Assembly: GCF_009797025.1 (NCBI RefSeq) | Contig: NZ_CP047027.1 | Location: 4,588,001-4,652,000, forward strand | DNA from: Cellulophaga sp. L1A9 | GTDB taxonomy: Bacteria > Bacteroidota > Bacteroidia > Flavobacteriales > Flavobacteriaceae | Direction: 5' to 3' | Length of the DNA: 64,000 bases | Shown: piece after piece, positions 9,807-32,886 of the stretch | How positions within the stretch are numbered: the stretch's first letter is position 1 | Layout of the letters: the number at the start of each line of letters is the position of its first letter | Made by a program: the position numbers and the translations under genes | The notes under the pieces: generated by a model | Database searches by the model: none | Seen by the model: the letters and a program-made list of their open reading frames with translations, nothing else | Told to the model about the DNA's origin: nothing

Positions 9807-9815
9807 GCTATAATC

Positions 9816-9854: not shown

Positions 9855-10334
9855 CACATAGGCTAATTAAAAACCACTGAGTACCACACTACTTTTATGC
9901 ACTTATATTTTCATATTCTGTTAATTACTAGAATTCAACTCCTTATTTTTTAAGTCAAAAAAAAATCATTTTTTTTATTCGGAGTATCATCAATATAGGC
10001 GCAAGCTATTCAATGTACTTCTTTCATAAAATAAGTGGATGTGTCTATTATTACGTAGGGGTACTAACTTTTAATCCTACAAAAGGAATAGGAGTTTTAG
10101 GAATGGGCAATATCCCCTACACCAATGACCATAGGCAATTCGGAATCAAAAAACGACATTTCTTATTCAGTAATCTACTCAAATACAAGTCATTGCTTGC
10201 ATTTTTTTTAGAGTACTCCAAAAACAAAAAACTTGATTGTCCTTAAATTTTGCGTTATTTGTCTTTAAGAATTTAGGTTAAACGTATCCAGAAAACTTTG
10301 GCAGTACCACTATTAAATAGAAGTATAAAAACCT
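9855..10334. other. Gene-poor region after the IS element
   Basis: About 480 bp with A/T runs and no gene I can support. A 77-codon frame at 10013-10246 has no recognisable features and looks like chance. The last 60-80 bases probably hold the promoter of the histidine kinase, but no exact TAnnTTTG element was found. Confidence 0.5.
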
Positions 10335-13134: not shown

Positions 13135-14178
13135 TTAACGTTTAGGCAATAGTAATTTGTGAATGAATTTTAGTTTTTCTACTACTGGAGGTGTAATTAC
13201 AAAAGGATACACATCTGGTACCCCCATGGCCCTATTAATGCTATTCACAGCAAAAGATAACGGTACACAGGTTCGTACAATAATATCAAAATCTTCTTTG
13301 GTATAGGGATCAAAAGTAACTTTAGCCTTCATTTCCCTAAGCTTTGTAATTGGTTTTACATTCACGCCAAAAAAATACGCCGTTTCCACCATATCCATAA
13401 TATGGAGGTAATGTGCCCAAGTTTCGGCCCAATCTTCCCATGGGTGTGCGGTAGCATACTTACTAATATATGACTTTTGCCAATCCTTAGGGGCACCATT
13501 CTCATAATATGCTGTCAGAGCATCTCCATAATTGCGTTGCTCATCTCCAAAAATAGTTCTAAATTCTGTTAATGTATTTTGATTGGTATACACTAATCTA
13601 TCCCAGAAATAATGACCAACTTCATGCCTAAGATGCCCTACCAAAGTACGGTAAGGTTCAGAAAAATGTTTTCGCATTTGTTCTCTCTGCACAGAATCTG
13701 CTTCTTTCAATAAAATAGTAACTACACCATTAGCATGACCTGTCATTAGATTAGGATCATCTTGCTGCACTACAAAATCAAAACACAAGCCATTTTCATC
13801 CTCCATTTTACTATGTAAAGGCAATCCAATTTTTTGAAGTTGATAAACTAATCGATGCTTAGCGATTTCTAGGTGTTGCCACTTCTCAAAATTTTCAGAA
13901 TCGGAAAGGTTCGGAATGGTACGGTTTAGCTGGCAAGCATTGCAATATACTTCTGGGCTGTTTTTTTCAAGTATCCAATTACAGACCTCATACTCTTTAT
14001 TTTTGCAATACTTATATTCAATATTTTCACGATCTGAAAACAGCGCGACCTCGTCTGGCTTAAAAGTTAACATTTTACGATCTAGGTCTCTAAAACCAGT
14101 TAAATGCCCACAATTTTCACAAGAATAATTTTCAAAAAAAACAGAGTGATTGCAGTGACCACATTGAAATATTTTCAT
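13135..14178 (-). CDS. Putative zinc metallopeptidase with zinc-ribbon N-terminus (Peptidase_Mx type)
   Basis: A 347-aa predicted cytoplasmic protease. The N-terminus has two zinc-binding Cys sets (C6-x-x-C9/C20-x-x-C23 and C58, C66, C79-x-x-C82). The active site is H185-E-V-G-H189, with a likely third ligand Glu in the segment EDWAETWAHYLH (about 248-259). This is the layout of proteins named putative zinc-binding metallopeptidase. It is the last gene of the first ATP-grasp/alpha-E/transglutaminase locus, 102 bp after the transglutaminase gene, and suggests peptide processing. Substrate unknown. Confidence 0.85.
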   Translation of the reverse strand: MKIFQCGHCNHSVFFENYSCENCGHLTGFRDLDRKMLTFKPDEVALFSDRENIEYKYCKNKEYEVCNWILEKNSPEVYCNACQLNRTIPNLSDSENFEKWQHLEIAKHRLVYQLQKIGLPLHSKMEDENGLCFDFVVQQDDPNLMTGHANGVVTILLKEADSVQREQMRKHFSEPYRTLVGHLRHEVGHYFWDRLVYTNQNTLTEFRTIFGDEQRNYGDALTAYYENGAPKDWQKSYISKYATAHPWEDWAETWAHYLHIMDMVETAYFFGVNVKPITKLREMKAKVTFDPYTKEDFDIIVRTCVPLSFAVNSINRAMGVPDVYPFVITPPVVEKLKFIHKLLLPKR

Positions 14179-14280
14179 CTTAATTAGATTGTATTATTTT
14201 TTAATGTCAGAAGGAATCCTACCATTGACATTTTATAAATACAAAATGGCGGCAAAAATAAGCAGAATATTATTACTAAA

Positions 14281-15123
14281 TTATAATTTTTTAATGATTA
14301 ATTCTGTATTTAATTTAGAACTAGCACTTCCTCTGATACCTCCGGAAACAGGCATTGTATGATCATAATGTGCACTTGATGCAATGGGAAAATGAGTGTT
14401 GCCCGTCAAAAGACCATGACTAGGGTCTACACCAAACCAACCAATACCTGGCAAATACACATCTACCCAAGCGTGGAGCTCATAAGCAGGGTTTATCATA
14501 TCAAAATAATAATAACCACTTACAAAACGTGCCGCAAGACCTTGTTGCCTCAATACGTTAATCAGCATCCAAGATAAGTCTCTACATGAACCTCTCTTTA
14601 GTTGAAAAGTTTCATCTGGCATGAATGGCGCTCCATCTGCTCTATATTCAACACTAAAATCATCATGCAATTGTTTAGTAAGATTGGTGAGATAAGGAAT
14701 GGTATTAAAATTTGACTGCTTTAAAATGGATAAAGCATAATCAATCAACACTTTTGAAATAGGCACTACTTCTAATGCAGAAAAAAGTAATTTTTTCTGC
14801 AAGACATTATATTGAAAAGGTAGTGTATTAAAACTTTGAGGGTATATTAAAAAATTAAAAGGATTGTATGGTTTCGTTTCTAGAACACTTTCTGCTTTAA
14901 TGCTTAGTTGAGATGTCATGCCTTCAAACCAGCAAAAATCTACAACATTATTATCTTCATCTTGTACTAATTTATGCCCTGCTGGTTGTGGCTGAATTGT
15001 TATGGCAAACTCAGAAACATCAACATAAGATGTTTGGCTTGGACGAAATCTTAAATAATGAGGTTCTAAAAAAACTTCTGAATCAAATAGATACGTTGTA
15101 ATATGGGTGATTTTAAATTTCAT
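14281..15123 (-). CDS. Transglutaminase-like cysteine protease family protein (locus 1)
   Basis: A 280-aa protein with an N-terminal beta domain (bacterial transglutaminase-like N region, about 1-85) and a papain-fold transglutaminase core. The catalytic triad is complete: Cys180 (RGSCRDLSW), His217 (ELHAWVDVY) and Asp233 (GVDPSHG). Bacterial members are thought to act mainly as peptidases or amidases. No signal peptide, so probably cytoplasmic. It lies 57 bp downstream of the alpha-E gene on the same strand, and this association recurs in the second locus at 20.6-28.4 kb. Confidence 0.9.
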   Translation of the reverse strand: MKFKITHITTYLFDSEVFLEPHYLRFRPSQTSYVDVSEFAITIQPQPAGHKLVQDEDNNVVDFCWFEGMTSQLSIKAESVLETKPYNPFNFLIYPQSFNTLPFQYNVLQKKLLFSALEVVPISKVLIDYALSILKQSNFNTIPYLTNLTKQLHDDFSVEYRADGAPFMPDETFQLKRGSCRDLSWMLINVLRQQGLAARFVSGYYYFDMINPAYELHAWVDVYLPGIGWFGVDPSHGLLTGNTHFPIASSAHYDHTMPVSGGIRGSASSKLNTELIIKKL

Positions 15124-15180
15124 GGAGTACCTATTTTAGTGCTGATTTAATAAAGGTGATGAAGTAAAAAGGATTTCCGT

Positions 15181-16140
15181 TTAGCTAGTTATTTGATTTT
15201 CAATGGAAAAAAACGATGCATAAACTGCTGTAGACACTCCATTTAGTTTTTGCTGAATATCGTCAAGATATTCATGCATACCTCCAGAAATAATCTCATT
15301 TATCGCTGTATATTCTAGTTGTGATTTTAGAGCTCCTAATTGTTTTTGAGCACTATTACTGAATCCAAAAGAACTCCCCGATAACGTAATAAGAGATTTC
15401 TCTGCACTAATCAAGCATGCCAGTATTGATCTAGGAAATTCTGTGTCTAAAATCAAAAATTCTGCTATACTTGACGAGGTGAGTTTTCCGTATTTTTTTC
15501 TATACATATCATAAGCACTGACCGACTTTAAAAGTGATGCCCACTGAATTAAGTCTAAGGAAGAACCTACCTCATTAGGAGAATCTAATAAAAGATGATA
15601 TTTAGTGTCTAAGACTCGAGATGTTTTATCTGCACGTTCTATTGCTTGCCCTAACTTACCAAAATGCCATCCTTCATTTCTTGAAATAGTAGCATCATAC
15701 ATACCATAAAGTAGTTGACACCCATTTTTAACATTGGTAAAAAATTCTCGTAAATTGTTTTCTTTATGACACTTGTTTTCTAAACCTGCCTTCACTAGGT
15801 AGTTTAATGCGTTAATTTGCTCCCAAAATTCTTTCGTTATTTCAGGGCGTATGGCACGTGCATTTTCCCTTGCATTTAAAATACAATTGTAAATGGAGTT
15901 TGGGTTTTTCTTATCAAAAGCTAAAAAATAAATCACTTTAGATTTAGACACTTTCGTGTTTAATGATTTATACAATTCCCAATCTCCAGTAATTACTACA
16001 ATAGGTTTCCATTGCTGCTCTTCATCTGGCGGCATTTCTAGTGATAAGTTATAATTTACATCCATAAATCGTGCATAATTTTCTGCACGTTCTAGATATC
16101 TATTCATCCAATATATTGTGTTCGCTACTCTACCAAGCAT
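15181..16140 (-). CDS. Alpha-E domain protein (DUF403), locus 1
   Basis: A 319-aa, almost entirely alpha-helical protein opening with the family signature MLGRVANTIYWMNRYLERAE. Alpha-E proteins occur next to circularly permuted ATP-grasp enzymes and transglutaminases; their biochemical role is unknown and may be as partner or carrier for the ligase. The gene lies 11 bp after the ATP-grasp gene, so they are co-expressed. In the second locus the same domain is fused to the C-terminus of the ATP-grasp protein, which argues for direct physical association. Confidence 0.92.
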   Translation of the reverse strand: MLGRVANTIYWMNRYLERAENYARFMDVNYNLSLEMPPDEEQQWKPIVVITGDWELYKSLNTKVSKSKVIYFLAFDKKNPNSIYNCILNARENARAIRPEITKEFWEQINALNYLVKAGLENKCHKENNLREFFTNVKNGCQLLYGMYDATISRNEGWHFGKLGQAIERADKTSRVLDTKYHLLLDSPNEVGSSLDLIQWASLLKSVSAYDMYRKKYGKLTSSSIAEFLILDTEFPRSILACLISAEKSLITLSGSSFGFSNSAQKQLGALKSQLEYTAINEIISGGMHEYLDDIQQKLNGVSTAVYASFFSIENQITS

Positions 16141-16151
16141 AATTTTTTAAT

Positions 16152-17591
16152 TTAATGATTTAATACCCATGTATCTTTACTTCCGCCACCTTGTGAAGAA
16201 TTAACTACGATTGATCCCTTTTTTAGTGCGACCCGTGTTAATGCTCCAGGGATAATGTTAATATCATCACCATAAAGTGCGTATGGTCTTAAATCAACAT
16301 GTCTTCCTTCTATGGTATTTTCATCAGTAATCGTAGGTACTCTAGACAAATTAATCATAGGTTGCGCTATATAATTTCTAGGATTATGCTTAATTTTCGC
16401 AATGAATTCTTGCTGTTCTTTTTTTGTAGATTTTGGACCTACAAGCATTCCATACCCACCAGAAGCATCTGTTTGTTTAACTACTAAATTGTGTATATTT
16501 TCAAGAACATATTTACGGTCTTGTTCTTCATCACAGATATATGTTTTTACATTTGGCAAAATCATATCTTCTCCTAAATAATACTTTATAATTCTTGGAA
16601 TATAAGCATAAACAGCTTTATCATCTACTACTCCTGTTCCTGGCGCATTAACTAAAACCACATTGCCTTTTAAATAGGCATTAAATAATCCGGGGGTTCC
16701 TAAAACTGAATTTTTGTTGAACGCTAAAGGATCAATAAACTCATCATCTACACGACGGTAAATAACATCCACACGTTTTAAACCATTGGTTGTAATGGTA
16801 TAAACGATTTCATTTTTCACTATTAAATCTTTACCTTCTACCAACTCTGCACCCATTTGCTGTGCCAGGTAGGAATGTTCAAAATAAGCAGAATTAAATA
16901 TTCCAGGCGTTAAAACAACTACCGTTGGGTTTTCTACATCGGTAAGTGATTCTAAGGTATCTCTTAAAATATGCGTATAGTCATAAACGGGCTTTACCCC
17001 TAATTTTTCAAATAACTCAGGAAAAGTACGCTTCAAAATTTCTCTGTTTTCTAGCATATAGGATACCCCAGAAGGACAGCGTAAATTATCTTCAAGTACA
17101 TAATATTGCCCGTCTCCGCCCTTAATTAGATCAGATCCTGTGATGTGACACCAAATATCTCTTGGGGGCTTAAAACCTTCTAATTCTTTCAAATACGAAA
17201 TACTTGAAAAAATCATCTCTTTAGGAATAATTTTATCTTTTAAAACCTTTTGATCGTTATAAATATCTTGAATGAATAAGTTAAGGGCTTTAATACGTTG
17301 CTGTAAGCCTCTTTCTAAATGTGTCCATTCTTTATTATCGATAATTCTTGGAATAATGTCTAAATGAAGAATACGTTCTACGCCCTGATTGTCACTATAC
17401 ACATTAAAAGTCATCCCTAAAGATAGTTGTGCTCTATCTGTAGCATGCTGTAATGTGCTTAGTTTTTTAGGACTCATTTTTTGAAGTCGCTCTAAAAACA
17501 ATTTGTAATTTGGCCTAACGTTTTTATTTTCATCAAACATTTCATCATAAAACCCTTTGGTTTCGTAAGCTGAGAAATCTAATTTTGGCAT
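16152..17591 (-). CDS. Circularly permuted type 2 ATP-grasp protein (locus 1)
   Basis: A 479-aa protein of the CP_ATPgrasp_2 (DUF404/DUF407) family, predicted to make amide or peptide bonds with ATP through an acyl-phosphate. Family hallmarks include YVLEDNLRCPSGVSYMLENR (about 162-181), the RRVDDEFIDPLAF segment, VNAPGTGVVDDKA, and a C-terminal GGYGMLVG nucleotide-binding stretch ending near SSQGGGSKDTWVL. It is the first gene of the minus-strand locus ATP-grasp, alpha-E, transglutaminase, metallopeptidase. The peptide product has not been identified. Confidence 0.92.
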   Translation of the reverse strand: MPKLDFSAYETKGFYDEMFDENKNVRPNYKLFLERLQKMSPKKLSTLQHATDRAQLSLGMTFNVYSDNQGVERILHLDIIPRIIDNKEWTHLERGLQQRIKALNLFIQDIYNDQKVLKDKIIPKEMIFSSISYLKELEGFKPPRDIWCHITGSDLIKGGDGQYYVLEDNLRCPSGVSYMLENREILKRTFPELFEKLGVKPVYDYTHILRDTLESLTDVENPTVVVLTPGIFNSAYFEHSYLAQQMGAELVEGKDLIVKNEIVYTITTNGLKRVDVIYRRVDDEFIDPLAFNKNSVLGTPGLFNAYLKGNVVLVNAPGTGVVDDKAVYAYIPRIIKYYLGEDMILPNVKTYICDEEQDRKYVLENIHNLVVKQTDASGGYGMLVGPKSTKKEQQEFIAKIKHNPRNYIAQPMINLSRVPTITDENTIEGRHVDLRPYALYGDDINIIPGALTRVALKKGSIVVNSSQGGGSKDTWVLNH

Positions 17592-18055
17592 GAAAAAAGT
17601 GTGAATTTATTCCAGATTTAATGCGTCTTTTTTGTTGCTGAAAAATCAGCGCAAAAAAAGATTATTTGTAAATTAAAAAAGGAGTGATTAAAAATGTGAC
17701 ATACTACCCATTGTAGTATATTCTCTCAATATACAAAAAACAAAGGAATATCCTAAACTTTTATGACATAAACCATGATTTTTTACACTATTTAAGCATA
17801 AAGTGCTATAAATCAATAATTAGATGAATTATAGTTTTACACCAAAATACGTTGGTCCTATGCATTATTGCGAGTTCAATAAAAGCAATATAGTATAAAA
17901 TGCTTGATGTAAATTTAAAAAGTGTTTTTCAATTTGTTTACTAAAATAAAGTGATGAAGCTAAAGCCGGATGAACGGTTTAAACCCCATTTATAAATAGC
18001 TATAATTCTTTTGAAATTCAACAACTCTTTCTACCATATGGACAATCATTCCATA
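17592..18055. other. Promoter region of ATP-grasp locus 1
   Basis: About 460 bp without a gene. It must hold the promoter of the locus 1 operon. A 7-bp perfect inverted repeat with a 5-nt spacer (GTATATT at 17716-17722, AATATAC at 17728-17734) lies 125 bp upstream of the start codon and could be an operator. No exact TAnnTTTG element was found on the minus strand. Confidence 0.45.
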
Positions 18056-18084
18056 AAAAAAGCTCCCAAATTGGGAGCTTTTTT
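18056..18084. terminator. Terminator of the Gly-rich secreted protein gene
   Basis: A 12-bp stem (18056-18067 with 18073-18084) with GC-rich core AGCTCCC and A/T tracts on both sides, 21 bp after the stop codon of the minus-strand gene. Confidence 0.85.
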
Positions 18085-18105
18085 CAATCACATTTAATTT
18101 ATATT

Positions 18106-18894
18106 TTATCCCTTTGAATCTGCCTTGAACCAAAAATCTATAGCTACTTCTTCTGGTCTTTGATCTTGATCTGGGCGATCTCCGCCTTGAGATCCGCCTT
18201 GACGACCACCTGGGCCTCCGCCACTACCTCCAGGTCCGCCGCTTTGGCCACCGCGCCCACCTTGGCCACCGCCACCAAAACTAATGTTTGATGAGCTATC
18301 CTCTTCTCTCTCTATTTTTGTAGTTACCACTCCTATCGTCATTTTTGATCCATCTACAGGATGTGAACTTATATTATTTTTAGGCATTATGAGCTCATAA
18401 TGCAAAAAGCCAGCATCTTTATCATAGTCATAAGCAATACTGATTGCTAGATTATTTAGATCTAAATGAAATTCTTGCGCTAAATCAGGAGTACTATAGC
18501 GTGCCATTTTTGACATGTCTACCAATACGGCTAAAATAGCTGGACCTCTTTCGTCATCTTTTTCTTCTCGTTCTCCACTAGTTCCACGAGGGCTTTCATT
18601 GCTATTGGGTTTCCCTTGTGGTAGGGCTACTTCAGAAGGGTATTGAACAGCGACGTTCTTTTTTCGTTTTCCTTTTACATCAAAATAAACAGAAAAACCA
18701 CGATGCAACATAGAAAGCATTGTTGCCTCATCTGTTGTGCTTAATTGCACATAAACATTTTTAGCATCCATAGTACTGCTATAGTTTATAGTGCCCTCAC
18801 TATTTTCAAGTGATACTTGAGCCTGACTTTTTAACACCCCAAACAGCCCTAGAATGCAAAGCGACCATTTAATTTTATTGAAAATAAACTTCAT
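18106..18894 (-). CDS. Secreted protein with Gly/Gln-rich C-terminal segment, unknown function
   Basis: A 262-aa protein not recognised by name. Signal peptide of about 26 residues (ending KSQAQ). Residues about 30-200 form a mixed domain with a Ser/Pro/Glu-rich linker near 95-115. Residues about 205-240 are dominated by Gly, Ser and Gln in GGxGG patterns, followed by an acidic tail with Trp. Similar Gly-rich tails occur in extracellular or surface proteins. The gene has its own terminator and lies between the two ATP-grasp loci; no functional link can be shown. Confidence 0.7.
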   Translation of the reverse strand: MKFIFNKIKWSLCILGLFGVLKSQAQVSLENSEGTINYSSTMDAKNVYVQLSTTDEATMLSMLHRGFSVYFDVKGKRKKNVAVQYPSEVALPQGKPNSNESPRGTSGEREEKDDERGPAILAVLVDMSKMARYSTPDLAQEFHLDLNNLAISIAYDYDKDAGFLHYELIMPKNNISSHPVDGSKMTIGVVTTKIEREEDSSSNISFGGGGQGGRGGQSGGPGGSGGGPGGRQGGSQGGDRPDQDQRPEEVAIDFWFKADSKG

Positions 18895-19099
18895 TTTTTT
18901 CTACTTAAATTAGGTATGATTTACCCTAAAGCTATCAAATAACAAAAGGCAAATACCATACTTTCAGTGAATAGCCTATAGTTCTTAGTGAATACAGGAT
19001 AACTTCCTTTCCATTTAAATTAATGCTCCCTAGTCATCACCCTATAATCCTAACAGGAATCCTTATCTTTACAGACTCAATACTGATGATTATACAATT

Positions 19100-19669
19100 T
19101 TGCAACAGATAAAAGCTTACTTAGATCAAATAGCGACCATCTCTACTAAAGATTGGGAATATTTTACGTCTAAATTACAAGGCCGTGTCATTCCGAAGAA
19201 AACTATTTTTTTAAAAATTAATGAGATCGAAAACCATATTTCTTTTATTGAATCTGGTGTAGTACGCTTGTTTATTCCCAAAGAGGACCCTGAAAAAGAA
19301 ATTACTTTTGGCTTTAGTTTTGAAAACCAATTTATCAGTGCCTATGATTCTTTTTTAACCCAACAACCTTCTGCCTATCAACTGGAAACGCTAACAGAAA
19401 CTACGCTTTTGAGCATTACCTATAGTGATTTACAAGCCGTTTATAAAAATACCCAAATAGGAAACCTTATTGGCAGACTAACCGCAGAACGCCTTTTTCT
19501 ATTAAAATCTAAGCGCGAACAAAACTTACTAAATCTCACCGCAGAAGAACGCTACCTAAAGTTATTTAAAGAACGGCCAGAACTCATAAAAGTAATTCCT
19601 TTAAAATACATTAGCTCCTATATTGGTGTTACCGCACAGGCTTTAAGCCGAATTAGAAAGCGTCTATAG
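19100..19669 (+). CDS. Crp/Fnr-family transcriptional regulator (TTG start)
   Basis: A 189-aa cyclic-nucleotide-binding-fold regulator. The N-terminal beta roll (about 1-120) is followed by a dimerisation helix and a compact HTH ending YISSYIGVTAQALSRIRKRL. Flavobacteria have many such short Crp-like proteins without known ligand. No in-frame ATG exists upstream; the TTG at 19100 gives the usual N-terminus (xxxIKAYLDQIATIS). It lies about 70 bp before the desaturase gene on the same strand, so it may control membrane-lipid desaturation. Confidence 0.9.
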   Translation: MQQIKAYLDQIATISTKDWEYFTSKLQGRVIPKKTIFLKINEIENHISFIESGVVRLFIPKEDPEKEITFGFSFENQFISAYDSFLTQQPSAYQLETLTETTLLSITYSDLQAVYKNTQIGNLIGRLTAERLFLLKSKREQNLLNLTAEERYLKLFKERPELIKVIPLKYISSYIGVTAQALSRIRKRL

Positions 19670-19736
19670 TACGTGTTTTATTGATTTAGGTTCATTGTTT
19701 TCCGACAAACAACACAGTATCTTTGTAAAAAAAGTT

Positions 19737-20480
19737 ATGGCAGTAATCATTTTTGTTTTAGTGCTTTGGTATGGAGGGTTGTTTTTTCAATCATTCTTTT
19801 TACACCGGTATGCAGCACACCAAGTATTTACCATGTCTAAAACCATGGAGCGTATTACATTTATTCTAACTTGGATTTTTCAAGGGTCTAGTTACTTAAG
19901 TGCTTATGGATATGGCGTTATGCATCGCATGCACCACGCATATACGGATACGGATAAAGATCCGCATTCCCCTTCTCACGATGCAAATTTATTTGCGATG
20001 ATGTGGCGGACAAAAACTATCTATCAAGATATCAATAAAGAACGGATTGCTATTGATCAGCGTTTTACGAAAAACGTACCACAATGGAAAGCATTTGATA
20101 AATTTGCGAGTTCTCGTATTTCTAGAATCCTGTGGATTTCAATGTATATTTTATTTTTCGCATTTTTCACCACCGCAACATGGCAATGGGCTTTGTTGCC
20201 TATCACCTTTTTAATGGCTCCTATTCATGGGGTAATTATCAACTGGTTTGGTCATATTTATGGCTATGTGAATTTTAAAATGAAAAATACGAGTAAAAAT
20301 TTATTCCGATTTGATTTTTTAATGATGGGCGAAGGTTATCACAACAATCACCATAAGCATGCTAGTAGAGCTAATTTTGGTGTAAAATGGTACGAGATAG
20401 ATGTTACCTATGTTATCATTAAATTATTAGACGCTTTTGGTTTTATTCAATTAAAACCCATTCCTGTACAAGATAAATAA
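19737..20480 (+). CDS. Membrane fatty acid (acyl-CoA type) desaturase
   Basis: A 247-aa integral-membrane di-iron desaturase that introduces a double bond into acyl chains. Three His boxes are intact: HRYAAH (23-28), HRMHH (63-67) and HNNHH (202-206), with hydrophobic pairs of helices between them. The frame is open upstream to a TTG at 19695 (14 more residues), but the ATG at 19737 gives the N-terminus usual for this family. The gene follows the Crp/Fnr regulator and ends at a strong hairpin. It is a probable part of cold or fluidity adaptation. Confidence 0.9.
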   Translation: MAVIIFVLVLWYGGLFFQSFFLHRYAAHQVFTMSKTMERITFILTWIFQGSSYLSAYGYGVMHRMHHAYTDTDKDPHSPSHDANLFAMMWRTKTIYQDINKERIAIDQRFTKNVPQWKAFDKFASSRISRILWISMYILFFAFFTTATWQWALLPITFLMAPIHGVIINWFGHIYGYVNFKMKNTSKNLFRFDFLMMGEGYHNNHHKHASRANFGVKWYEIDVTYVIIKLLDAFGFIQLKPIPVQDK

Positions 20481-20521
20481 CTAAAAATAGTTCTTAGCTA
20501 AAGGACATTTTTGATAAAAAA

Positions 20522-20570
20522 AATCCATAAAATAAAAGCGCAGCAATGCTGTACTTCTATTTTATGGGTT
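20522..20570. terminator. Terminator between desaturase and locus 2
   Basis: A 17-position stem (20522-20538 with 20554-20570) with two mismatched or wobble positions, carrying an inner CAGC-AAT-GCTG hairpin in the loop. It lies between convergent genes. Confidence 0.75.
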
Positions 20571-20589
20571 TTTGCATTATATCTAATTG

Positions 20590-21465
20590 CTAACTTTTGC
20601 GGGTAACATCTACGGTAACCTCCATATGCTGACCTCCTCCAGAATACACGATTCCTTTTAAGGGAACAACATCTGAAAAATCACGTCCTTTAGCCACGCG
20701 TATATGCTGGTCTGATACTAAAAGATTATTTGTAGCATCAAACTCTACCCAACCTATGTCAGGTATATATAAAGACATCCAAGCATGAGAAGCATCTGCT
20801 CCTGCTAACTTGGGTTTTCCTGGTGGAGGAATGGTTTCAATATACCCACTTATATACCTAGCAGACAAGCCGATAGAACGCACACAGGCCAAACCAAAAT
20901 GTGCATAATCTTGACATACTCCTTTTTTATGTTTAAACACTTCTTCTAGAGGAGTACTTATTTCCGTGAAGCCGGGCGTAAATGTAAAGTCGGTATAAAT
21001 ACGCGTATTTAATTCATGCATCGCTTCCATTATTGGTCTGTTTGGAGTAAAAGACATTAAAGCATACGCACGTATAGCTGATAAGAAGGTAACATGAGGC
21101 GATTCTAAATAAAATTGCCGGATATCATTAGAGGTATCTATAGACTGCAGCAATTTAACTACCGATTCCCAAGCAGGTGTTTCGGCAGGATTTATAGCCA
21201 ACCACGTTGGTGGATGCACTGTAATTTCATTGGTACTTTCAACAACAAGCTTTTTGTGGGCTTTTTGCAGTGAAAAATAGAAGTATTTATTTTCAAAAAA
21301 ATCTTCTCGTTCCATTATAAAATTTGGCTCAGGATCAATAGTACATTTAGAGGAATTGATTTCCTGTAAAGTATTATTACCACTAACCTGAAATACGATA
21401 TTATGGCATAACGAAACCATAGATTGATATTCGTATACTGTTTTGTGTTTCACTTCGTAAATCAT
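20590..21465 (-). CDS. Transglutaminase-like cysteine protease family protein (locus 2, distal)
   Basis: A 291-aa protein, with beta-rich N domain (about 1-85) and transglutaminase core. The triad is complete: Cys184 (KGVCQDYAHF), His227 (ASHAWMSLY) and Asp243 (EFDATNN). It has the CQD form of the active site, unlike the CRD form in locus 1. Its start codon overlaps the end of the ATP-grasp/alpha-E gene by 4 bp, so translation is coupled. No signal peptide; cytoplasmic role expected. Last gene of the locus 2 operon. Confidence 0.92.
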   Translation of the reverse strand: MIYEVKHKTVYEYQSMVSLCHNIVFQVSGNNTLQEINSSKCTIDPEPNFIMEREDFFENKYFYFSLQKAHKKLVVESTNEITVHPPTWLAINPAETPAWESVVKLLQSIDTSNDIRQFYLESPHVTFLSAIRAYALMSFTPNRPIMEAMHELNTRIYTDFTFTPGFTEISTPLEEVFKHKKGVCQDYAHFGLACVRSIGLSARYISGYIETIPPPGKPKLAGADASHAWMSLYIPDIGWVEFDATNNLLVSDQHIRVAKGRDFSDVVPLKGIVYSGGGQHMEVTVDVTRKS

Positions 21466-24020
21466 ATTTCTGGAATTTTAGTGCTTACAAAACCAAATGT
21501 AGTTTCCGTATGGTTAAAATATTGACTTATAAATAAACTCGAAGCATCTCCAAGCAACTGTTCTAATTTTTCCATTAAAAGGATTAAGTCTTTTCTAGAA
21601 CCTGATTTTTTCTTTCCTTTTTTTAATAGGTTAGGTTCGCTTAAACGAACCAAGGTCGTTGCCTCTAAAAGTTTTTTCTGTATTAAACTAAGCTGTAGCT
21701 GTACTTCAGACGTTTTTGGCATGCGATTTACACGTTTTTCAAGTTGTGTAATTTGGTATACTACAGATCGTGGATTCAATTCATTTAGCAACAACAATGT
21801 TAATGTATTGGTGAATTCAATAGTAGATCTATACATATAACGATACGTAATTAAACTCTCGTTATTAATTAACACGCACTCTAAGAGCGATTTTTCTGTT
21901 TCGCTGTCCAGTTCCTTAGATAGGATATTTTTTAGAAAAGTACAGGTCATATAAGAAGATTCCAGATCACTTCCTATGCACTGTAAATTCCAAGAAACAT
22001 CTCTTGTCATCGTATCTACCCGTAAGCCATGATACGCCATAAGCCGTATAATTAAACCATCTAAAATATAACTAATATCATTGATTCTAGTGCTCTCTTT
22101 AAGCTTGTTACTTTCTTCTGAAATATGATCTAATATGCGCCAACTATCAAGACCTAAACGGTCACGTACCGCATAGGCGTTACGTAAAAATGCTTGTAGG
22201 GAGTGATTCAAGGAACCTGCCTTTGTTACATCAGTGATTACAGAAATGAGTTCTTTTTCAGGATTCACTAATGTTTCTTTATCTTCGAAACCTGGCAATA
22301 ACAAGGTGATATTAGAAAATGATTTTAATAAAGAGCAGAGTACCACATCTTTTTCAACATTTAAGTTATCCTCAGTTTCATAATACTTCTTTATAATAAC
22401 GCGTGCCAGACGCACTAGAAAAATAGAACGTTCTACATACCTGCCCAACCAGAATAATTTTTCTGCGGTACTGCTCGGCAATACATTTTCTGTTTGCGGA
22501 ATTTTATTTGGTACACTTTCTGATTTAGTATGTTTATCACTACCAAGCACCCAAGTATCTTTACTGATCCCTCCCGCTTGATTGGAAACTATAAACGTTC
22601 CTTCATCTGCAGAACTTCGGGTTAATCCACCCGGCATCACTTGGTACGAATGGTCTGTAGTATCTGCTACTACATAACTTCTAAATACCGCATTTCTAGA
22701 GGCTAACTTACCGTCTATGTATGATGGCGTTGTAGAAAAATTTACCCTTTCTTGACCTACATACAAATAAGGCCTCATATTAATTTCATTCTTCAGGGTT
22801 GCTATCTGTTCCTCATCTAATGATGAGCCGTACATAGCACTACTTGTATCATCACTATATATTTTTCTGATAATTAATTTTTCTAAATTATCAAATACAT
22901 ATTGTTTTGCAGCTGCTTGTCCGCACCACCATGTAGCGACAGAAGGTAGAATAAGTTCTTCCCCTAAAATATGTCTACATAGCTTAGGTAAAAACGCCAT
23001 TAAGCCTGGATTTTCAAGAATCCTACTGCCTAAAGGATTTATAAGCATTACCTTTTGCTGCCGTACTGCCTCCATAAGGCCTACAACCCCTAATTGCGAG
23101 TTCATTTTAAACTCTAAAGGATCGCAGAAAACATCATCAACTCGACGTACGATAACATCTACTTTTTTAAGTCCTTTTATTGTTTTTAGCCAAACATACC
23201 CATCACTTACTGTAAGATCTGCACCACTTACCAAGGTAAAACCCATCAATGAAGAAAGGTAAGCATGCTCAAAATAAGCCTCGTTTTCTGAACCTGGCGA
23301 AAGAAAAACTACTCTTGGCTCTTCCTTATTTTGCCATGCGAGATTTGTTATGGTTCTCTTTAAAGTTTCGTAGTACGTATTGATTTTTCTAATCTGATTT
23401 TCTCGAATCATTTCAGGAAAAACTCGGGTCATGGCGACCCTATTTTCAAAGGTATATCCTGCTCCCGAAGGCGCATCTGTACGGTCATGTAAAACCCACA
23501 TTTTACCATTCGGCCCACGTGCTAAATCGGCAGAATACTGTATCAATTGTTGCTCTCCCGGAATTTTTAATTTATCAACCTGCCGTAAAAATCCTTTGTG
23601 ATTATAGATCAGTTCAAAAGGGATATGGCCAGAGCGAATAAGTGTACGTTTGCCATAGATATCTTTTAAAATATGATTTAATAAAACAGTACGCTGTTTC
23701 AGCCCTGATTCTATAACGTTCCAATCTTGCTCTCCAAAAATCATGGGCACAGAATCAAGCATCCAAGGCCTGTTCATCCCATCCGGATCACCATAAATAT
23801 TATAGGTAACCCCATTTTCTTTCAATTGCCGCTTTAGTTGAAGCTGGCGCTCATCCATCTCCTCTTTCCCAAGCGTATTAAAGGTATCCAATATCTTTTC
23901 CCAATGTGGATGCACTGAACCGTCAGGCGATGTTATTTCGTCAAAATAGGGAGAATTACTTTCGACTTTTTTTTGTAATAAAGAAGAAATCATATCTTCT
24001 TTATAAAGCTGGTTGTCCAT
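21462..24020 (-). CDS. Circularly permuted ATP-grasp fused to alpha-E domain (locus 2)
   Basis: An 852-aa fusion. The N-terminal part (about 1-500) is a CP_ATPgrasp_2 ligase with WVLHDRTDAPSGAGYTFENR (about 175-194), the VRRVDDVFCDPLEF motif and a C-terminal QAGGISKDTWVL. The C-terminal part (about 515-852) is an alpha-E domain starting SSTAEKLFWLGRYVERS. It thus joins in one chain what locus 1 encodes as two proteins. Overlaps of 1 bp upstream and 4 bp downstream show tight coupling. Predicted amide-bond-forming enzyme of unknown product. Confidence 0.93.
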   Translation of the reverse strand: MDNQLYKEDMISSLLQKKVESNSPYFDEITSPDGSVHPHWEKILDTFNTLGKEEMDERQLQLKRQLKENGVTYNIYGDPDGMNRPWMLDSVPMIFGEQDWNVIESGLKQRTVLLNHILKDIYGKRTLIRSGHIPFELIYNHKGFLRQVDKLKIPGEQQLIQYSADLARGPNGKMWVLHDRTDAPSGAGYTFENRVAMTRVFPEMIRENQIRKINTYYETLKRTITNLAWQNKEEPRVVFLSPGSENEAYFEHAYLSSLMGFTLVSGADLTVSDGYVWLKTIKGLKKVDVIVRRVDDVFCDPLEFKMNSQLGVVGLMEAVRQQKVMLINPLGSRILENPGLMAFLPKLCRHILGEELILPSVATWWCGQAAAKQYVFDNLEKLIIRKIYSDDTSSAMYGSSLDEEQIATLKNEINMRPYLYVGQERVNFSTTPSYIDGKLASRNAVFRSYVVADTTDHSYQVMPGGLTRSSADEGTFIVSNQAGGISKDTWVLGSDKHTKSESVPNKIPQTENVLPSSTAEKLFWLGRYVERSIFLVRLARVIIKKYYETEDNLNVEKDVVLCSLLKSFSNITLLLPGFEDKETLVNPEKELISVITDVTKAGSLNHSLQAFLRNAYAVRDRLGLDSWRILDHISEESNKLKESTRINDISYILDGLIIRLMAYHGLRVDTMTRDVSWNLQCIGSDLESSYMTCTFLKNILSKELDSETEKSLLECVLINNESLITYRYMYRSTIEFTNTLTLLLLNELNPRSVVYQITQLEKRVNRMPKTSEVQLQLSLIQKKLLEATTLVRLSEPNLLKKGKKKSGSRKDLILLMEKLEQLLGDASSLFISQYFNHTETTFGFVSTKIPEI

Positions 24021-27000
24021 TATTGAATTTTCTTTTTCGCTTTATATTGTCTCAAATCCATAGTATATGGATAATCAGGATTTACTACTTCGCCACTAAT
24101 ATCATACTGCGTTGTAATTTGTATTGGTGTAATATAGCGTCCTGCAGACTGTTGTGTTGCTACGGTAGGTTCTACCAAATTAACGGTATGTCCAAAATCA
24201 AAAAATCTAGAAATACGTCGCGATTCTGCCTCATAACTATTCACAGGAAAGGTTTCATAATTGCGCCCTCCTGGATGTGCCACATGGTATTTGCAAGCCG
24301 CCACAGATTTTTTAGACCAGGTATCATACAAATCAATTACTAAAGGAGTATCCGCCCCTAGCGTTGGATGTAATGCAGAAGGCGGCTGCCATGCACGGTA
24401 GCGTATTCCTGCCACATATTCGCCCTGAACTCCTGTGTTCTTTAGTGGAATACGGCATCCATTACAAATGAGTATGTAACGAGAATCTGTCAATCCGCTT
24501 ACTTTTACCTGAATTCTTTCTAATGAAGAATCTACAAAACGTGCTGTTCCTGTGCTAGACATTTCTTCTCCTAGTACATGCCAAGGTTCAATCGCCATGG
24601 TTAATTCTATATGGATATTATCTACTTGTAATTCTCCTAAAAATGGAAAACGGAAGGCAAAAAATGGATCAAACCAATCCAAATTCATTTTATATCCTGC
24701 ATTTTGTAAGTCTTTCATCACATCGCCTAAATCATTAGAACAATAATGGGGCAATAAAAACCGGTCATGGAGTGCTGTTCCCCAACGTACTAATTTATGT
24801 TCATAAGGTTTTTCCCAAAACCAAGCCATTAAGGAGCGTATCAATAAAAATTGTACCATACACATTTGATAATGTGGTGGCATATCAAATCCTCTAAATT
24901 CTAAAATTCCCAAGCGTCCTGTTGAAGAATCTGGAGAATACAATTTATCAATACAAAATTCTGCTCTATGGGTATTCCCCGTAATATCTACCAATAAATT
25001 TCTGAAGATGCGATCTACCAACCAAAATGGTACTTCGTTTTCTTTTAGGTCTTCTGGTATTTGCTGAAAGGCCAATTCTAGCTCGTATAACATTTCATCA
25101 CGCCCTTCATCTACTCGTGGTGCCTGACTTGTAGGACCAATAAACTGTGTAGAAAACAAATACGATAATGAAGGATGATGTTGCCAATAGGTAATAAAAC
25201 TACGCAATACATCTGGTCTGCGAAGTAACGGACTGTCTGCTGGGGTTACTCCTCCTAGCGTTACATGGTTCCCACCACCGGTTCCGGTATGTTTCCCGTC
25301 TAGATTAAACTTTTCTGTAGTTAATTGAGTTTCCGCAGCTTTTTTATAAAGAATATCATAATTATTCAGAATTTCTTTCCAACTACTTGCGGGGTGAATA
25401 TTTACTTCAATAACGCCTGGATCGGGTGTGATTTGAAATTTCTGGATGCGATTATCTGAAGGAGGATCATACCCTTCAATAAGAATAGGCATTTGTAACT
25501 TCTCAGCTACTACCTCAATATGATTTACCAATTGAAGGTAATGTTCAAAATGTGTCAGCGGTGGTAAAAATATAAAGAGTTTTCCTGCTCTTATTTCTAC
25601 TGATAAACTGGTAATAAAAATGGACTCACTATCTGCTATTTGCTGACGCCCTTCGCTCTTTGCTGTATTTTCTTTTATGCTGGGTAATGCCTCTGCTGCT
25701 TCAAATAAACTAGGCTCTGGCTTCACTTTCACTTCTTCGTGATCAAATGCTTGAATAGATTTCAACGGCAATCGTAAGCCTAAAGGAGAGTTCCCAGGAA
25801 CTAGAAATAGGTTTTTTCTACGGAATTTCCATGCACAAGTTTCCCACGTACTATTTTCAAAATTCCATGCAATTGGTATAGAATAACCGATAGGTTTATT
25901 CATACCGTGTTGCAACAATTCTGATAAACGCTGACGTTCTAATGGAGCTTCTAAATCGAGTTTTAAAGGATCTACATCTATAGGTATATTACTTTCTTCC
26001 CATGCAAAATAAAAGGGATCTTCATACGCAGGGTGTATACATTCTTGGTTTAGTTGTAAGGATTTTGCTAAAGCGTTCATAAACGTATCCGCATCATCTA
26101 CCGTAAATTTATAATCGTGAGATAGGTCTGCTAAAAGCGTATCATTATTCCAAATTGGCAAGCCATCTTTACGCCAATAACATCCTAATTTCCAACGAGG
26201 CAAAGGCTCTCCAGGATACCATTTTCCTTGTCCGTACAGCATTAAAGCTCCCGTACCAAATTCATCTTTTAGTTTATGAAAAAGTTCATTTGATAATTTA
26301 CGCTTTTGTGCGCCATCTGCTGCAGAATTCCACTCTGGTGCATCTTGATTATCTGTAGCAACAAACGTGGGTTCTCCTCCCATGGTTAGCCGCACATCTT
26401 TCGCTAACAATACCGCATCAACTTGTTCTCCTAAGGTCACAATATCATTCCACTGTTCATCGGAATAAGGTTTAGTCACTCGGGGTTTTTCTACAATACG
26501 CGTTACGGTATTTTCAAAATGAAATTCGGTTTTTGCTGCTTCTGCAAGCCCTGAAATTGGGGCGGCACTATCTGGATTAGGAGTACACGCCAAAGGAATA
26601 TGTCCTTCCCCAGCAAACAAGCCTGAGGTAGCATCTAAACCTATCCAACCAGCTCCTGGAACATAAACTTCTGCCCAAGCGTGTAAATCTGTAAAATCTT
26701 CCTCGGCTCCAGAGGGTCCTGTAAGCGATTTAACATCCGGTTTTAATTGCACCAAATACCCTGATGCAAAACGTGATGCCAATCCTAAATGACGTAACAA
26801 TTGTACCAATACCCAAGTAAAATCACGACAAGAGCCTGATTTTAACTGCAAGGTTTCTTCACAGGATTGTACTCCTGCTTCCAAGCGGATGTTATAGGAT
26901 AATTGATTATATATCAACTGATTTAAGGCGACTAAAGAATCAACCATATTCATATCATCGGTTAAAAGCGCTTTTGCTTCCTTAACCAAATTGAGCATCA

Positions 27001-27376
27001 AGGCATCTTTTTCTTTTATCTCTAAGTAAGGCGATAATTGTTGTAATAAGCCTTCTTCATAGGTAAAACCTGGTTTTGAGGCATATTCTTCAATAAAAAA
27101 ATCGAAAGGATTAATCACCACTAGATCTGCAATAACCTCTACATCTACCGAAAAATGATCTACTTTATCTGGAAAAACAATTCTAGCCATATAGTTTCCA
27201 AAAGGATCTTGCTGCCAGTTGATAAAGTGATTTTTAGGATTGATATTTAAACTATATCCTTTAATCGGGGTACGAGAATGTGGTGCAGGACGTAGCCTAA
27301 TTACCTGTGGCGATAATTTAATATGCTTATCATATTTGTATTCTGTGTAATGCCTTATGGCTACTTGTATTGACAT
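24020..27376 (-). CDS. Large transglutaminase-like protein with DUF2126 region (locus 2)
   Basis: A 1118-aa protein. The N-terminal 290 residues are a transglutaminase-like protease with Cys183 (SGSCRDFTW), His232 (DLHAWAEVY) and Asp248 (GLDATSG). The remaining roughly 820 residues are the DUF2126 region seen in the same family, with conserved stretches such as LTMGGEPTFVA and HTGTGGGNHVTLGG. The latter region has a look of glutamine-synthetase/amidoligase-related folds, as suggested in the literature for this family; I cannot verify that here. The stop overlaps the ATP-grasp start by 1 bp. Confidence 0.93.
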   Translation of the reverse strand: MSIQVAIRHYTEYKYDKHIKLSPQVIRLRPAPHSRTPIKGYSLNINPKNHFINWQQDPFGNYMARIVFPDKVDHFSVDVEVIADLVVINPFDFFIEEYASKPGFTYEEGLLQQLSPYLEIKEKDALMLNLVKEAKALLTDDMNMVDSLVALNQLIYNQLSYNIRLEAGVQSCEETLQLKSGSCRDFTWVLVQLLRHLGLASRFASGYLVQLKPDVKSLTGPSGAEEDFTDLHAWAEVYVPGAGWIGLDATSGLFAGEGHIPLACTPNPDSAAPISGLAEAAKTEFHFENTVTRIVEKPRVTKPYSDEQWNDIVTLGEQVDAVLLAKDVRLTMGGEPTFVATDNQDAPEWNSAADGAQKRKLSNELFHKLKDEFGTGALMLYGQGKWYPGEPLPRWKLGCYWRKDGLPIWNNDTLLADLSHDYKFTVDDADTFMNALAKSLQLNQECIHPAYEDPFYFAWEESNIPIDVDPLKLDLEAPLERQRLSELLQHGMNKPIGYSIPIAWNFENSTWETCAWKFRRKNLFLVPGNSPLGLRLPLKSIQAFDHEEVKVKPEPSLFEAAEALPSIKENTAKSEGRQQIADSESIFITSLSVEIRAGKLFIFLPPLTHFEHYLQLVNHIEVVAEKLQMPILIEGYDPPSDNRIQKFQITPDPGVIEVNIHPASSWKEILNNYDILYKKAAETQLTTEKFNLDGKHTGTGGGNHVTLGGVTPADSPLLRRPDVLRSFITYWQHHPSLSYLFSTQFIGPTSQAPRVDEGRDEMLYELELAFQQIPEDLKENEVPFWLVDRIFRNLLVDITGNTHRAEFCIDKLYSPDSSTGRLGILEFRGFDMPPHYQMCMVQFLLIRSLMAWFWEKPYEHKLVRWGTALHDRFLLPHYCSNDLGDVMKDLQNAGYKMNLDWFDPFFAFRFPFLGELQVDNIHIELTMAIEPWHVLGEEMSSTGTARFVDSSLERIQVKVSGLTDSRYILICNGCRIPLKNTGVQGEYVAGIRYRAWQPPSALHPTLGADTPLVIDLYDTWSKKSVAACKYHVAHPGGRNYETFPVNSYEAESRRISRFFDFGHTVNLVEPTVATQQSAGRYITPIQITTQYDISGEVVNPDYPYTMDLRQYKAKKKIQ

Positions 27377-27546
27377 CGACTAAGAAATTAATGTGAAAAT
27401 TATCTAAGAGCAAAATTAACTATTAGATGTTATTTATTTAGACTCGTATTCGTAATGCTTAGGCGGACCTACAACAAAAACATAAGAAAGCGATTTTTTA
27501 TGAAATATACTATCATTCATTTGTTTTTTATTTCTAGCTGTAGGTA

Positions 27547-28362
27547 CTAAAATTTGGTGTAGAAATTTTCCTGTTCTTCCGCTACTTTCTCAACAGTTAC
27601 CACCTGTTTTAAAGGAACAACACCTGGACCAAATTGGTTAAAAACGGCAACATCTGCTGCATCGGTACCATAGCCTAAAGCAACATAACCTCCTTTTTTG
27701 TCCGATTGTGTGGCATCAAACGTATACCAGCATCCACCTACATACACTTCAAACCAGGCATGCATATCCATCGGTTTTAAATTATGTAAATATCCCACAA
27801 CAATACGAGCAGGAATGCTTATACTGCGGCATAAGGCAATGCCTAAATGGGCTAAGTCTCTACAAACCCCAGATTGTCGATAGTTAACGTCTACCGCTGA
27901 AATAGGGAAATTACTGCTCCCTGGAATATAGCTGATTGTATTACGCAACCAAGATTCAATAGCAGCAACTTGGTTATATCCTGGTAATTCATTTGCTGTA
28001 ATAGATACAGCCAAATCATTAAAACGATCTGATTCACAATACCTACTCGGTAATAAATAACGTAAGATTGAATCTGGTAAATTTTGAATCTCTACAAATG
28101 GAGCCCCAAAATGAACAGCAACTACATCTGGAACTTGTACCTCTGCCTTGGTACTAATGGAGAAATTTCCCGAAGGAGCAATCAGTCGCTGACAAAGGTT
28201 ACCCGCAATATCTGTATGTTCAACCACGGGTATCATGGGCGAAATTTTGTATTCTTCGCGTTCTACCCATTGTGCTGCATTACTTCGTGGGCGCAGCATT
28301 AATATAAACGGCGTAGGTACTTCTAACTCAAACAATAAAAAAAAACTAATTCGCAATACCAT
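27547..28362 (-). CDS. Transglutaminase-like protein (locus 2, first gene)
   Basis: A 271-aa transglutaminase-core protein with Cys in SGVCRDLAHLG, His in MDMHAWFEVY and Asp in TFDATQSD, so the triad is present. The frame is open to an ATG at 28431 (23 more residues), but the family begins near the MVLRISFFLLFEL segment, so I chose the ATG at 28362. It is 170 bp upstream of the DUF2126 gene and may be the first gene of the locus 2 operon or have its own transcript. With it, locus 2 has three transglutaminase-like proteins. Confidence 0.87.
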   Translation of the reverse strand: MVLRISFFLLFELEVPTPFILMLRPRSNAAQWVEREEYKISPMIPVVEHTDIAGNLCQRLIAPSGNFSISTKAEVQVPDVVAVHFGAPFVEIQNLPDSILRYLLPSRYCESDRFNDLAVSITANELPGYNQVAAIESWLRNTISYIPGSSNFPISAVDVNYRQSGVCRDLAHLGIALCRSISIPARIVVGYLHNLKPMDMHAWFEVYVGGCWYTFDATQSDKKGGYVALGYGTDAADVAVFNQFGPGVVPLKQVVTVEKVAEEQENFYTKF

Positions 28363-28772
28363 AGGGAAGTGTTTTATAAAATACGTGAAAATAGGTTTGT
28401 TTTTAGCTACAGGGTATTTTCCAATGCCCAACCAATTTAAGTATTATTTAGGTAGTAAAAGAGTTCTATTTTAGTTGATTAGGTATTATTTATGAATCGT
28501 AACTTTTAGTACTATTAATTTCCTAATTAGATAAAAAACCTGCGGATAATCTTTTGATTTTAGGGTGACAATTTATAAGCATCTTACAAAAATAGGAACG
28601 CGAAGATATCGGGAAAAGCACCCATTCCCCTTTCTAATTGCACTGTAGCCATCAGTTGTAATAACACATAAGTTAAACACTGCTAAGACTTTACACCGCA
28701 TATATTAAACAAAAAAAGGAAACAAAAACAACTATAGGGTCACTATTTACGTACATCCTTAAACCCCATTAC
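28363..28772. other. Divergent promoter region between locus 2 and a lipoprotein gene
   Basis: About 410 bp without a gene (the first 69 are open in frame with the transglutaminase). A CAAAAATA at 28587-28594 is a minus-strand TATTTTTG that fits the Bacteroidota -7 element and could drive locus 2; no matching -33 element is evident. Nothing else was recognised. Confidence 0.4.
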
Positions 28773-30089
28773 ATGAATCTTATGAAAAATTTAAAATCTT
28801 ACGTAGGCATTCTATACCTAGTTTTCGCTTTATATAGCTGTACTAGTGATGATGCCAAGGTTGTTGTTCCTAGTGAAACCGAAGAGTCAATAACCCCTAT
28901 TGATGAAGAAGAGCCTAATGAAGAAAACCCTGTTGCTACCACATTGATTGCCAATGATCTTGAACCACACCCTATGCAAGATATTGCCAGACCCGAATAT
29001 TTAAAAACTATCGTAGATCCTTCTTTCGGAACAACCATTCGTAGAATATCAAATGCTGGAGACGGTGGGGTTATAAAACCTATGTACAGTACCATCCAAG
29101 CTTGGAATGCCGATGAAACTAGAATGATTCTGTACGACCAAACAAACGGTGTACATCAATTGCTAGATGGCATGACCTATGAATTCATTCGGAATCTTGA
29201 TGACCTGCGCCCGGATGATTTAGAGCAACTATTCTGGGATTTCAATGATGCAGATGTCCTGTATTATTTAGATGCGAGTACGGATGATTTTATTAAATAC
29301 AGTATTTCATCTTCAACGAAAGAGATTTTAGTCAATTTAAAAGACGTCACAGGTTGTGATGGTAGTATTAGTATGGGCAGTGATGTGCAAATGATGTCTT
29401 GGGATTCTGATGTGATAGGCTTTAGATGTGATAATAGCACCACCTATTCGTATCGTTTCTCTACTCAGAACCTAACCCCCTTTAATCTTGATGATGTAAA
29501 CTATGCAGCCGTTATGCCTGCACCTAGTGGCACCTTATTTTACCATAATGTGTCTTCTTATGATGCCAATGGTAATTTTGTGGCTAGACTTAATAAAAGC
29601 AAACCAGAGCATTCTTGTTTAGGGCAAATGACCGATGGAACGGATACTGATTATTCGGTAAGTTTTGATGGCGGACCTAATGGTGGTTGTCAAGGGAATA
29701 TTATTGCTTTCGATTTAAACACGGGGGAGTGTCTTCCTGTGATTTCTGAAGCTCAAGGGTATGCTTATCCAAAAACAGGAACCCATATTTCTGCAGTTGC
29801 TCATAAAAACCCGGGGTGGATTGCTGCTTCAATGATTGGTTTTGATGAAGACGGACAAGCATTATTAGATCAAGAATTAGTGATTGCACGTGTTGAACCT
29901 GGGAATGTTGAGGTGTACAGAATTGGACACCACAGAGCCGATGAAGACCAATTTGATTATTGGGGAGAACCGCATGCTGTAATCAGCCCTACAGGAACCA
30001 GAGTCCTTTTTGGTTCTGACTGGAGCGGTTCTGAAGATGGCAAGTCTGTTGAATCTTACGTCGTAGAACTCCCTTCTTTTAATCCGTAA
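28773..30089 (+). CDS. Exported lipoprotein with beta-propeller-like repeats, unknown function
   Basis: A 438-aa lipoprotein: the signal peptide ends at lipobox ALYSC with Cys23, then an acidic Glu/Pro linker (about 32-55) places the domain away from the membrane. The rest repeats short strands ending in Asp/Gly turns, as in WD40-like or oligogalacturonate-lyase-like propellers, and the C-terminus has YWGEPHAVISPTGTRVLFGSDW, reminiscent of that group. No catalytic residues can be assigned safely. An ATG at 28782 is an equally good start. Monocistronic with a downstream hairpin. Possibly acts on or binds polysaccharides. Confidence 0.75.
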   Translation: MNLMKNLKSYVGILYLVFALYSCTSDDAKVVVPSETEESITPIDEEEPNEENPVATTLIANDLEPHPMQDIARPEYLKTIVDPSFGTTIRRISNAGDGGVIKPMYSTIQAWNADETRMILYDQTNGVHQLLDGMTYEFIRNLDDLRPDDLEQLFWDFNDADVLYYLDASTDDFIKYSISSSTKEILVNLKDVTGCDGSISMGSDVQMMSWDSDVIGFRCDNSTTYSYRFSTQNLTPFNLDDVNYAAVMPAPSGTLFYHNVSSYDANGNFVARLNKSKPEHSCLGQMTDGTDTDYSVSFDGGPNGGCQGNIIAFDLNTGECLPVISEAQGYAYPKTGTHISAVAHKNPGWIAASMIGFDEDGQALLDQELVIARVEPGNVEVYRIGHHRADEDQFDYWGEPHAVISPTGTRVLFGSDWSGSEDGKSVESYVVELPSFNP

Positions 30090-30097
30090 ATAAAATA

Positions 30098-30129
30098 AGG
30101 TCTAGCATGCTCCTGTAGCGGCTAGACCT
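30098..30129. terminator. Terminator of the lipoprotein gene
   Basis: Perfect 9-bp stem AGGTCTAGC (30098-30106) with 30121-30129 and a 14-nt loop, followed by ATCTTTTT. Between convergent genes; may also serve the NO operon. Confidence 0.75.
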
Positions 30130-30192
30130 ATCTTTTTAAATTTACGTTCTTATACCCTTCTAAATAATAGCGTATTATATTTTAGCACCCTA

Positions 30193-30591: not shown

Positions 30592-30646
30592 CTTACATGT
30601 TATAAAATGCAACACAGACTAAATATTAGGCTGTGTTGATTTTTAA

Positions 30647-32866: not shown

Positions 32867-32886
32867 GGTTGTTTCTTTTTCAATTC

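Follow-up and report, generated by a model that had tools for sequence, protein, structure and literature searches.

In the bacterium Cellulophaga sp. L1A9, two nearby gene groups encoding ATP-grasp, alpha-E and transglutaminase-like (TG) proteins, here called locus 1 and locus 2, are probably modules of one composite peptide or amide ligase system and not two systems working in parallel, a reading to which we give a probability of about 0.64. Both groups lie in a 64,000-nucleotide stretch of contig NZ_CP047027.1 (positions 4,588,001 to 4,652,000; assembly GCF_009797025.1), which we refer to as the window and whose numbering is used below unless stated. Two observations carry this reading. Judged by its motifs, the ATP-grasp of locus 2, which is fused to an alpha-E domain, has lost the ATP site in every copy examined. 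In addition, the module formed by DUF2126 and this fusion is almost confined to genomes that also encode a full-length stand-alone ATP-grasp, and the reverse does not hold. Both the degeneration of the fused paralogue and the one-way dependency are added by the present analysis. Since the module depends on the stand-alone set and not the reverse, a composite system fits better than two parallel ones.

Gene content of the two loci

The eight genes of the two loci are as follows.

13135..14178, minus strand: zinc-ribbon and Peptidase_Mx metallopeptidase, locus 1 (Pfam PF15887, E value 7e-105, and PF10005), with an HEVGH motif in its translation
14281..15123, minus strand: TG1, transglutaminase-like protein of the GSCRD type, triad complete, locus 1 (Pfam PF08379/PF01841 and alignment)
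15181..16140, minus strand: stand-alone alpha-E with the R-E-N-x-R motif, locus 1 (Pfam PF04168, E value 2e-95, and conservation)
16152..17591, minus strand: stand-alone circularly permuted ATP-grasp, CP_ATPgrasp_2, locus 1 (Pfam PF14403, E value 4e-165; match to PDB 3n6x, E value 2e-159)
20590..21465, minus strand: TG2a, transglutaminase-like protein of the GVCQD type, triad complete, locus 2 (Pfam and alignment)
21462..24020, minus strand: fusion of CP_ATPgrasp_2 and Alpha-E with a degenerate ATP/Mg site, locus 2
24020..27376, minus strand: TG-DUF2126, with a GSCRD-type TG region at amino acids 1 to 280 and DUF2126 at amino acids 280 to 1110, locus 2
27547..28362, minus strand: TG2c, transglutaminase-like protein of the GVCRD type, triad complete, locus 2 (Pfam and alignment)

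Open reading frames (ORFs) and Pfam matches bear out the gene content given in the original prediction, made earlier from the letters of the window: a separate ATP-grasp, alpha-E, TG and zinc peptidase in locus 1, and an ATP-grasp/alpha-E fusion, a TG-DUF2126 protein and two TGs in locus 2, where TG2a and the fusion overlap by 4 bp (21462 to 21465) and the fusion and TG-DUF2126 by 1 bp (24020). The Cys-His-Asp triad, which had also been described as complete, is present by alignment in all four TGs of the window. The ORF of TG2c runs to 28431 if its start is an upstream TTG. Chance is excluded for the domain calls because every one of the eight proteins has a best Pfam match with an E value of about 2e-16 or lower.

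Three Alpha-E and three CP_ATPgrasp_2 matches were found in the whole genome. The third set, in the order ATP-grasp, alpha-E, TG, lies 0.6 Mb off on the minus strand, at 4013.8 to 4017.1 kb of the genome (positions 8821 to 12137 of region L004); its motifs are intact, and its TG is of the GVCQD type.

Conserved residues lost from the ATP-grasp and alpha-E halves of the fusion

The ATP-grasp of locus 1, with its E-x-N, DDK, K..GGYG and D-x-R motifs all intact, is predicted to be an active ligase. The same motif set was not found in the fusion, whose metal motif is degenerate.

23463..23492, minus strand: LHDRTDAPSG of the fusion (amino acids 177 to 186), corresponding to LEDNxRxPSG in stand-alone relatives

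As numbered in the locus-1 ATP-grasp, E167, N169 and K325 (the DDK lysine) are each present in 99/99 distinct stand-alone proteins and in 0/92 distinct fused ones. Each was also found in 0/120 of the closest homologues of the Cellulophaga fusion, some of which are among the 92, and the E and N were each found in 0/120 homologues of a Tsukamurella fusion, 119 of which have both domains; the two homologue lists overlap partly. In common forms of the Tsukamurella list, a gap replaces the glycine loop. The original prediction had itself named the loss of conserved residues as counting against it, and the fused ATP-grasp has indeed lost E-x-N and the DDK lysine, both of which the locus-1 copy has kept. 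An unfused paralogue in genome G251 has the E, N and K intact and an altered glycine loop.

Among 109 near-invariant positions of the stand-alone proteins, 53 are kept (at least 90 percent) in the fused proteins and 29 are lost, and the replacement residues in the fused ATP-grasps are conserved across phyla. Nonsynonymous and synonymous divergence (dN/dS) from Cellulophaga baltica was 0.011/0.378 for the fusion, 0.014/0.388 for the stand-alone ATP-grasp and 0.013/0.363 for TG-DUF2126. The fused ATP-grasp is under purifying selection despite the loss of its motifs, which is loss and not decay. No report of the degenerate fusion turned up in literature searches, which reach few subscription papers.

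A similar pattern was observed in alpha-E, where R93, E94, N95 and R97 are present in 80, 79, 81 and 76 of 81 stand-alone proteins, respectively. Among 69 fused alpha-E domains, conservation is absent at R93, E94 and R97, and 32 retain N95; W13, R20 and E170 are kept in 69/69. In the Cellulophaga fusion, the R-E-N-x-R of stand-alone relatives reads L-R-N-x-Y. One reading is that the R-E-N-x-R motif acts where the ATP site does. The parallel loss in both fusion domains suggests, tentatively, that this motif may complete the active ATP-grasp site. From the fusion it had been concluded that ATP-grasp works together with alpha-E as one unit. Their physical association stands, but given the conserved residues lost in both domains, the fused pair is read as a partner protein in preference to a second active ligase.

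One-way co-occurrence of the DUF2126/fusion module with a stand-alone ATP-grasp

The Pseudomonadota sample comprised 120 genomes, including the centre genome G167, picked because it carries the module, and motif letters of the stand-alone proteins were inspected in a hand-picked part of 20 regions. A stand-alone ATP-grasp was found in 69 genomes, DUF2126 in 40, the fusion in 36 and both module parts in 34. All 40 genomes with DUF2126 and all 36 with the fusion had a stand-alone ATP-grasp, compared with 69/120 overall (hypergeometric 2e-13, the genomes not being independent). Among 148 Bacteroidota genomes, including Cellulophaga sp. L1A9, a full-length stand-alone ATP-grasp was present in 52, DUF2126 in 5 and the fusion in 4, with all 5 and all 4 falling within the 52 (hypergeometric 0.005).

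The survey of DUF2126 loci covered the best 80 of 378, of which 49 extended for 9 kb or more to each side. Of these 49, 46 contained a fused ATP-grasp, whole or in fragments, and 12 of the 46 also held a stand-alone one; two loci had only a stand-alone ATP-grasp, and one had neither. In 35 genomes from which such loci came, a stand-alone ATP-grasp was found in 34, a fused one in 34 and clearly both in 33; genome G182 has an ATP-grasp piece at a contig edge. The stand-alone proteins from 33 of the 35 genomes have the E, N and K intact in all cases, with a single GGYD in place of GGYG (region L161).

The genes are also often adjacent, with 22 of the 36 Pseudomonadota fusions lying at most 15 kb from a stand-alone ATP-grasp gene. 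On an Enterobacter plasmid, the ATP-grasp, alpha-E, TG-DUF2126, fusion and TG genes are consecutive; single clusters also occur in Caballeronia, with a zinc peptidase added, and in Methylococcaceae, with TG2c and Anbu added. Regarding the surroundings, the five-gene set of the 91-kb Enterobacter roggenkampii IncFII plasmid (region L157) is near arsC and an IS6 transposase, and a citrate synthase and a ParA-like ATPase stand among the Methylococcaceae ligase genes (region L136, 13491 to 14792 and 18518 to 19222). Other layouts were observed as well. As exceptions, one Sinorhizobium meliloti locus and one Tsukamurella plasmid locus have the fusion and a TG but lack both DUF2126 and a stand-alone set in the 8 kb around them, and in Azospirillum and Shinella loci the stand-alone set is likewise absent from the surrounding 8 kb. 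On a Halomonas plasmid (region L152), the stand-alone ATP-grasp, DUF2126, TG2a and Peptidase_Mx frames are each split. On an Acidithiobacillus caldus plasmid (region L155), the DUF2126 frame is separate from the upstream TG-like frame, and Anbu, an intact ATP-grasp and alpha-E lie beside DUF2126, with no fusion in the 18-kb stretch.

DUF2126 as a putative ligase of locus 2

The predicted model of DUF2126 has a glutamine synthetase (GS)-like fold, and its mean confidence score (pLDDT) of 71 sets the claim at the level of the fold. The candidate catalytic residues E335, E390, E657, N659, H704, R804, E826 and R828 are invariant in 64/64 sequences and are putative counterparts of the metal and ATP residues of GS. 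DUF2126 looks like the intact ligase of locus 2, as far as a predicted model can tell.

A proposed composite system and its alternatives

In the composite system, an active ATP-grasp with its alpha-E partner would activate a carboxylate as an acyl phosphate and make an amide bond. The fused ATP-grasp/alpha-E protein would act as a noncatalytic binding or scaffold subunit, which may hold the acceptor peptide or pair with the active ATP-grasp. DUF2126 would be a second ATP-using ligase that extends or caps the product, and the TG-like enzymes of the CRD and CQD types could transfer or remove it, a role that the zinc peptidase may share in the Anbu-less Cellulophaga genome. In Cellulophaga sp. 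L1A9, either locus 1 or the third set, or the two together, could supply the active partner. A more specific version, which we hold tentatively and at somewhat less than even odds, is a ligase/pseudo-ligase pair spanning phyla, where the ATP-dead fusion might serve as a substrate platform between the active ATP-grasp/alpha-E and DUF2126; two unrelated ligases would then work one after the other on a single peptide or tag, which the TGs and the peptidase would transfer and remove.

The original prediction had proposed two parallel, perhaps complementary, amide-bond systems with different targets, which would give each locus an ATP-grasp ligase of its own. In the version weighed here, locus 1 would make one amide product and locus 2 another via DUF2126, the stand-alone set being merely frequent in the same genomes as the module. 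This proposal draws on several features, namely, the many genomes that carry stand-alone sets without the module, the other genes that separate the two loci, the differing TG types (CRD/CQD) and the apparent integrity of DUF2126 by itself. Nevertheless, the one-way dependency, the frequent adjacency and single-cluster arrangements, and the absence of ATP motifs from locus 2's own ATP-grasp, in a module almost never found without a stand-alone ATP-grasp, make it improbable in our view. It is also conceivable, although rather unlikely, that the fused ATP-grasp was retooled and is not dead, with DRTxAPSG and LENP forming a new catalytic or nucleotide-binding site for a different reaction. Such a site would be compatible with a composite system; against it, E-x-N, the DDK lysine and the glycine loop were lost together, with a gap in place of the loop in the common Tsukamurella-list forms. 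Finally, the three related sets within one genome might suggest a recent, lineage-specific duplication with redundant copies. However, a tree built from 127 ATP-grasp domains places the fused copies on one side of a single branch (support 100, length 2.0), a split matched by 0/500 label shuffles, and Bacteroidota, Pseudomonadota and Thermodesulfobacteriota occur on both sides. This was a quick tree, in which the placement of a single very long branch (L147) may be wrong. The deep split refutes a recent duplication, which we regard as extremely improbable, and it answers the earlier call for a phylogeny of the two copies.

Several observations weigh against the composite system. Stand-alone sets without DUF2126 or the fusion were found in 27/69 Pseudomonadota and 47/52 Bacteroidota carriers, and locus 1 may therefore work alone. 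DUF2126 and a stand-alone set occur with no fusion found in G064, G218, G246 and G258 (G231, G267 and G279, with contig-edge matches, were set aside), the fusion occurs without DUF2126 in G206 and G296, and G177, a 2.5-Mb metagenome-assembled genome, has the fusion and no stand-alone copy. The genomes are not independent samples. Concerning linkage, 14 of the 36 Pseudomonadota fusions have no stand-alone gene within 15 kb on the same contig, the module and a stand-alone set of the third-set type are about 250 kb apart in Arenibacter, and three unrelated genes separate locus 1 from locus 2. Literature searches found no biochemistry for the fusion or DUF2126. According to excerpts of PMC6376114, the Yersinia stand-alone ATP-grasp homologue released phosphate from ATP in an assay that did not distinguish ligation from hydrolysis, and the proteins of the four-gene Anbu operon, when coexpressed, gave no specific interaction in a pull-down. 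By analogy, the phosphate release itself supports a presumably active stand-alone partner.

Genomic context

Three genes lie between the two loci.

18106..18894: unassigned gene
19100..19669: Crp-like regulator (assigned by eye)
19695..20480: desaturase (Pfam)

The fusion is 98 percent identical in C. baltica, where the gene order is the same and to which this genome is close. No PF00227 match and no Anbu match were found anywhere in the genome. The G+C content is about 0.38 at 22001 to 34000 of the window and 0.32 to 0.37 in the 10- to 22-kb part, and locus 2 and its right-hand neighbors may be of different origin. A NorB-type nitric oxide reductase and, by eye, a truncated-hemoglobin-like ORF were seen at 30193 to 32866, just past locus 2, and an IS3-like transposase ORF with an integrase core lies at 8910 to 9806, left of both loci.

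Comparison with known systems

Iyer et al. reportedly predicted in 2009 a peptide-tagging system composed of a circularly permuted ATP-grasp, a GS-like ligase, alpha-E, a transglutaminase and an NTN-peptidase. The gene set described here belongs to this known and uncharacterized kind, since a circularly permuted ATP-grasp lies next to alpha-E and TG-like genes and a GS-like ligase fold is found in the neighborhood of locus 2; ATP-dependent peptide or amide ligation is predicted from homology and from one assay of a relative, for which phosphate release is reported. Excerpts of PMC5666114, PMC6376114 and PMC3597751 cite Iyer et al. (2009) as the source of the predicted set. As the original prediction had held for such amide-ligase/peptidase sets, no product was found in literature searches for this widespread system, predicted in 2009. 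The present pattern tells which proteins to combine in module-carrying genomes, namely, an active ATP-grasp with alpha-E, DUF2126, the fusion and the TGs, and it names the residues to test and, in the fusion, a protein from which no ATP turnover is expected. An old open question on this gene set is now directly testable.

In excerpts of PMC6376114 and PMC5666114, the Anbu operon of Yersinia and Pseudomonas resembles locus 1 and the third set in its ATP-grasp, alpha-E and TG; it differs in having four genes without DUF2126 or the fusion, and the Cellulophaga genome has no Anbu. The ATP-grasp of that operon, assayed by itself or in the presence of Anbu, HslV, glutamine or glutamate, released phosphate with no identified product (excerpts of PMC6376114). 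The RloABC operon of Pseudomonas aeruginosa (PMC12239564), likened here by description only, encodes an ATP-grasp protein, a protease and an inactive transglutaminase; the inactive member there is the TG, and the term alpha-E is absent from the article's main text. From GS and YbdK fold ligases, TG-DUF2126 differs by its TG fusion, its 830-residue DUF2126 region and an identity of 7 to 16 percent. The E-x-N, DDK and GGYG residues of PDB 3n6x, a stand-alone circularly permuted ATP-grasp from Methylobacillus, are missing from the fusion. Like the system predicted by Iyer et al., the Cellulophaga set links genes for an ATP-grasp, alpha-E and TG-like proteins with one for a GS-fold ligase (DUF2126), and it differs from that system in that the genome has no Anbu match, a zinc peptidase adjoins locus 1 and the fused second ATP-grasp is degenerate.
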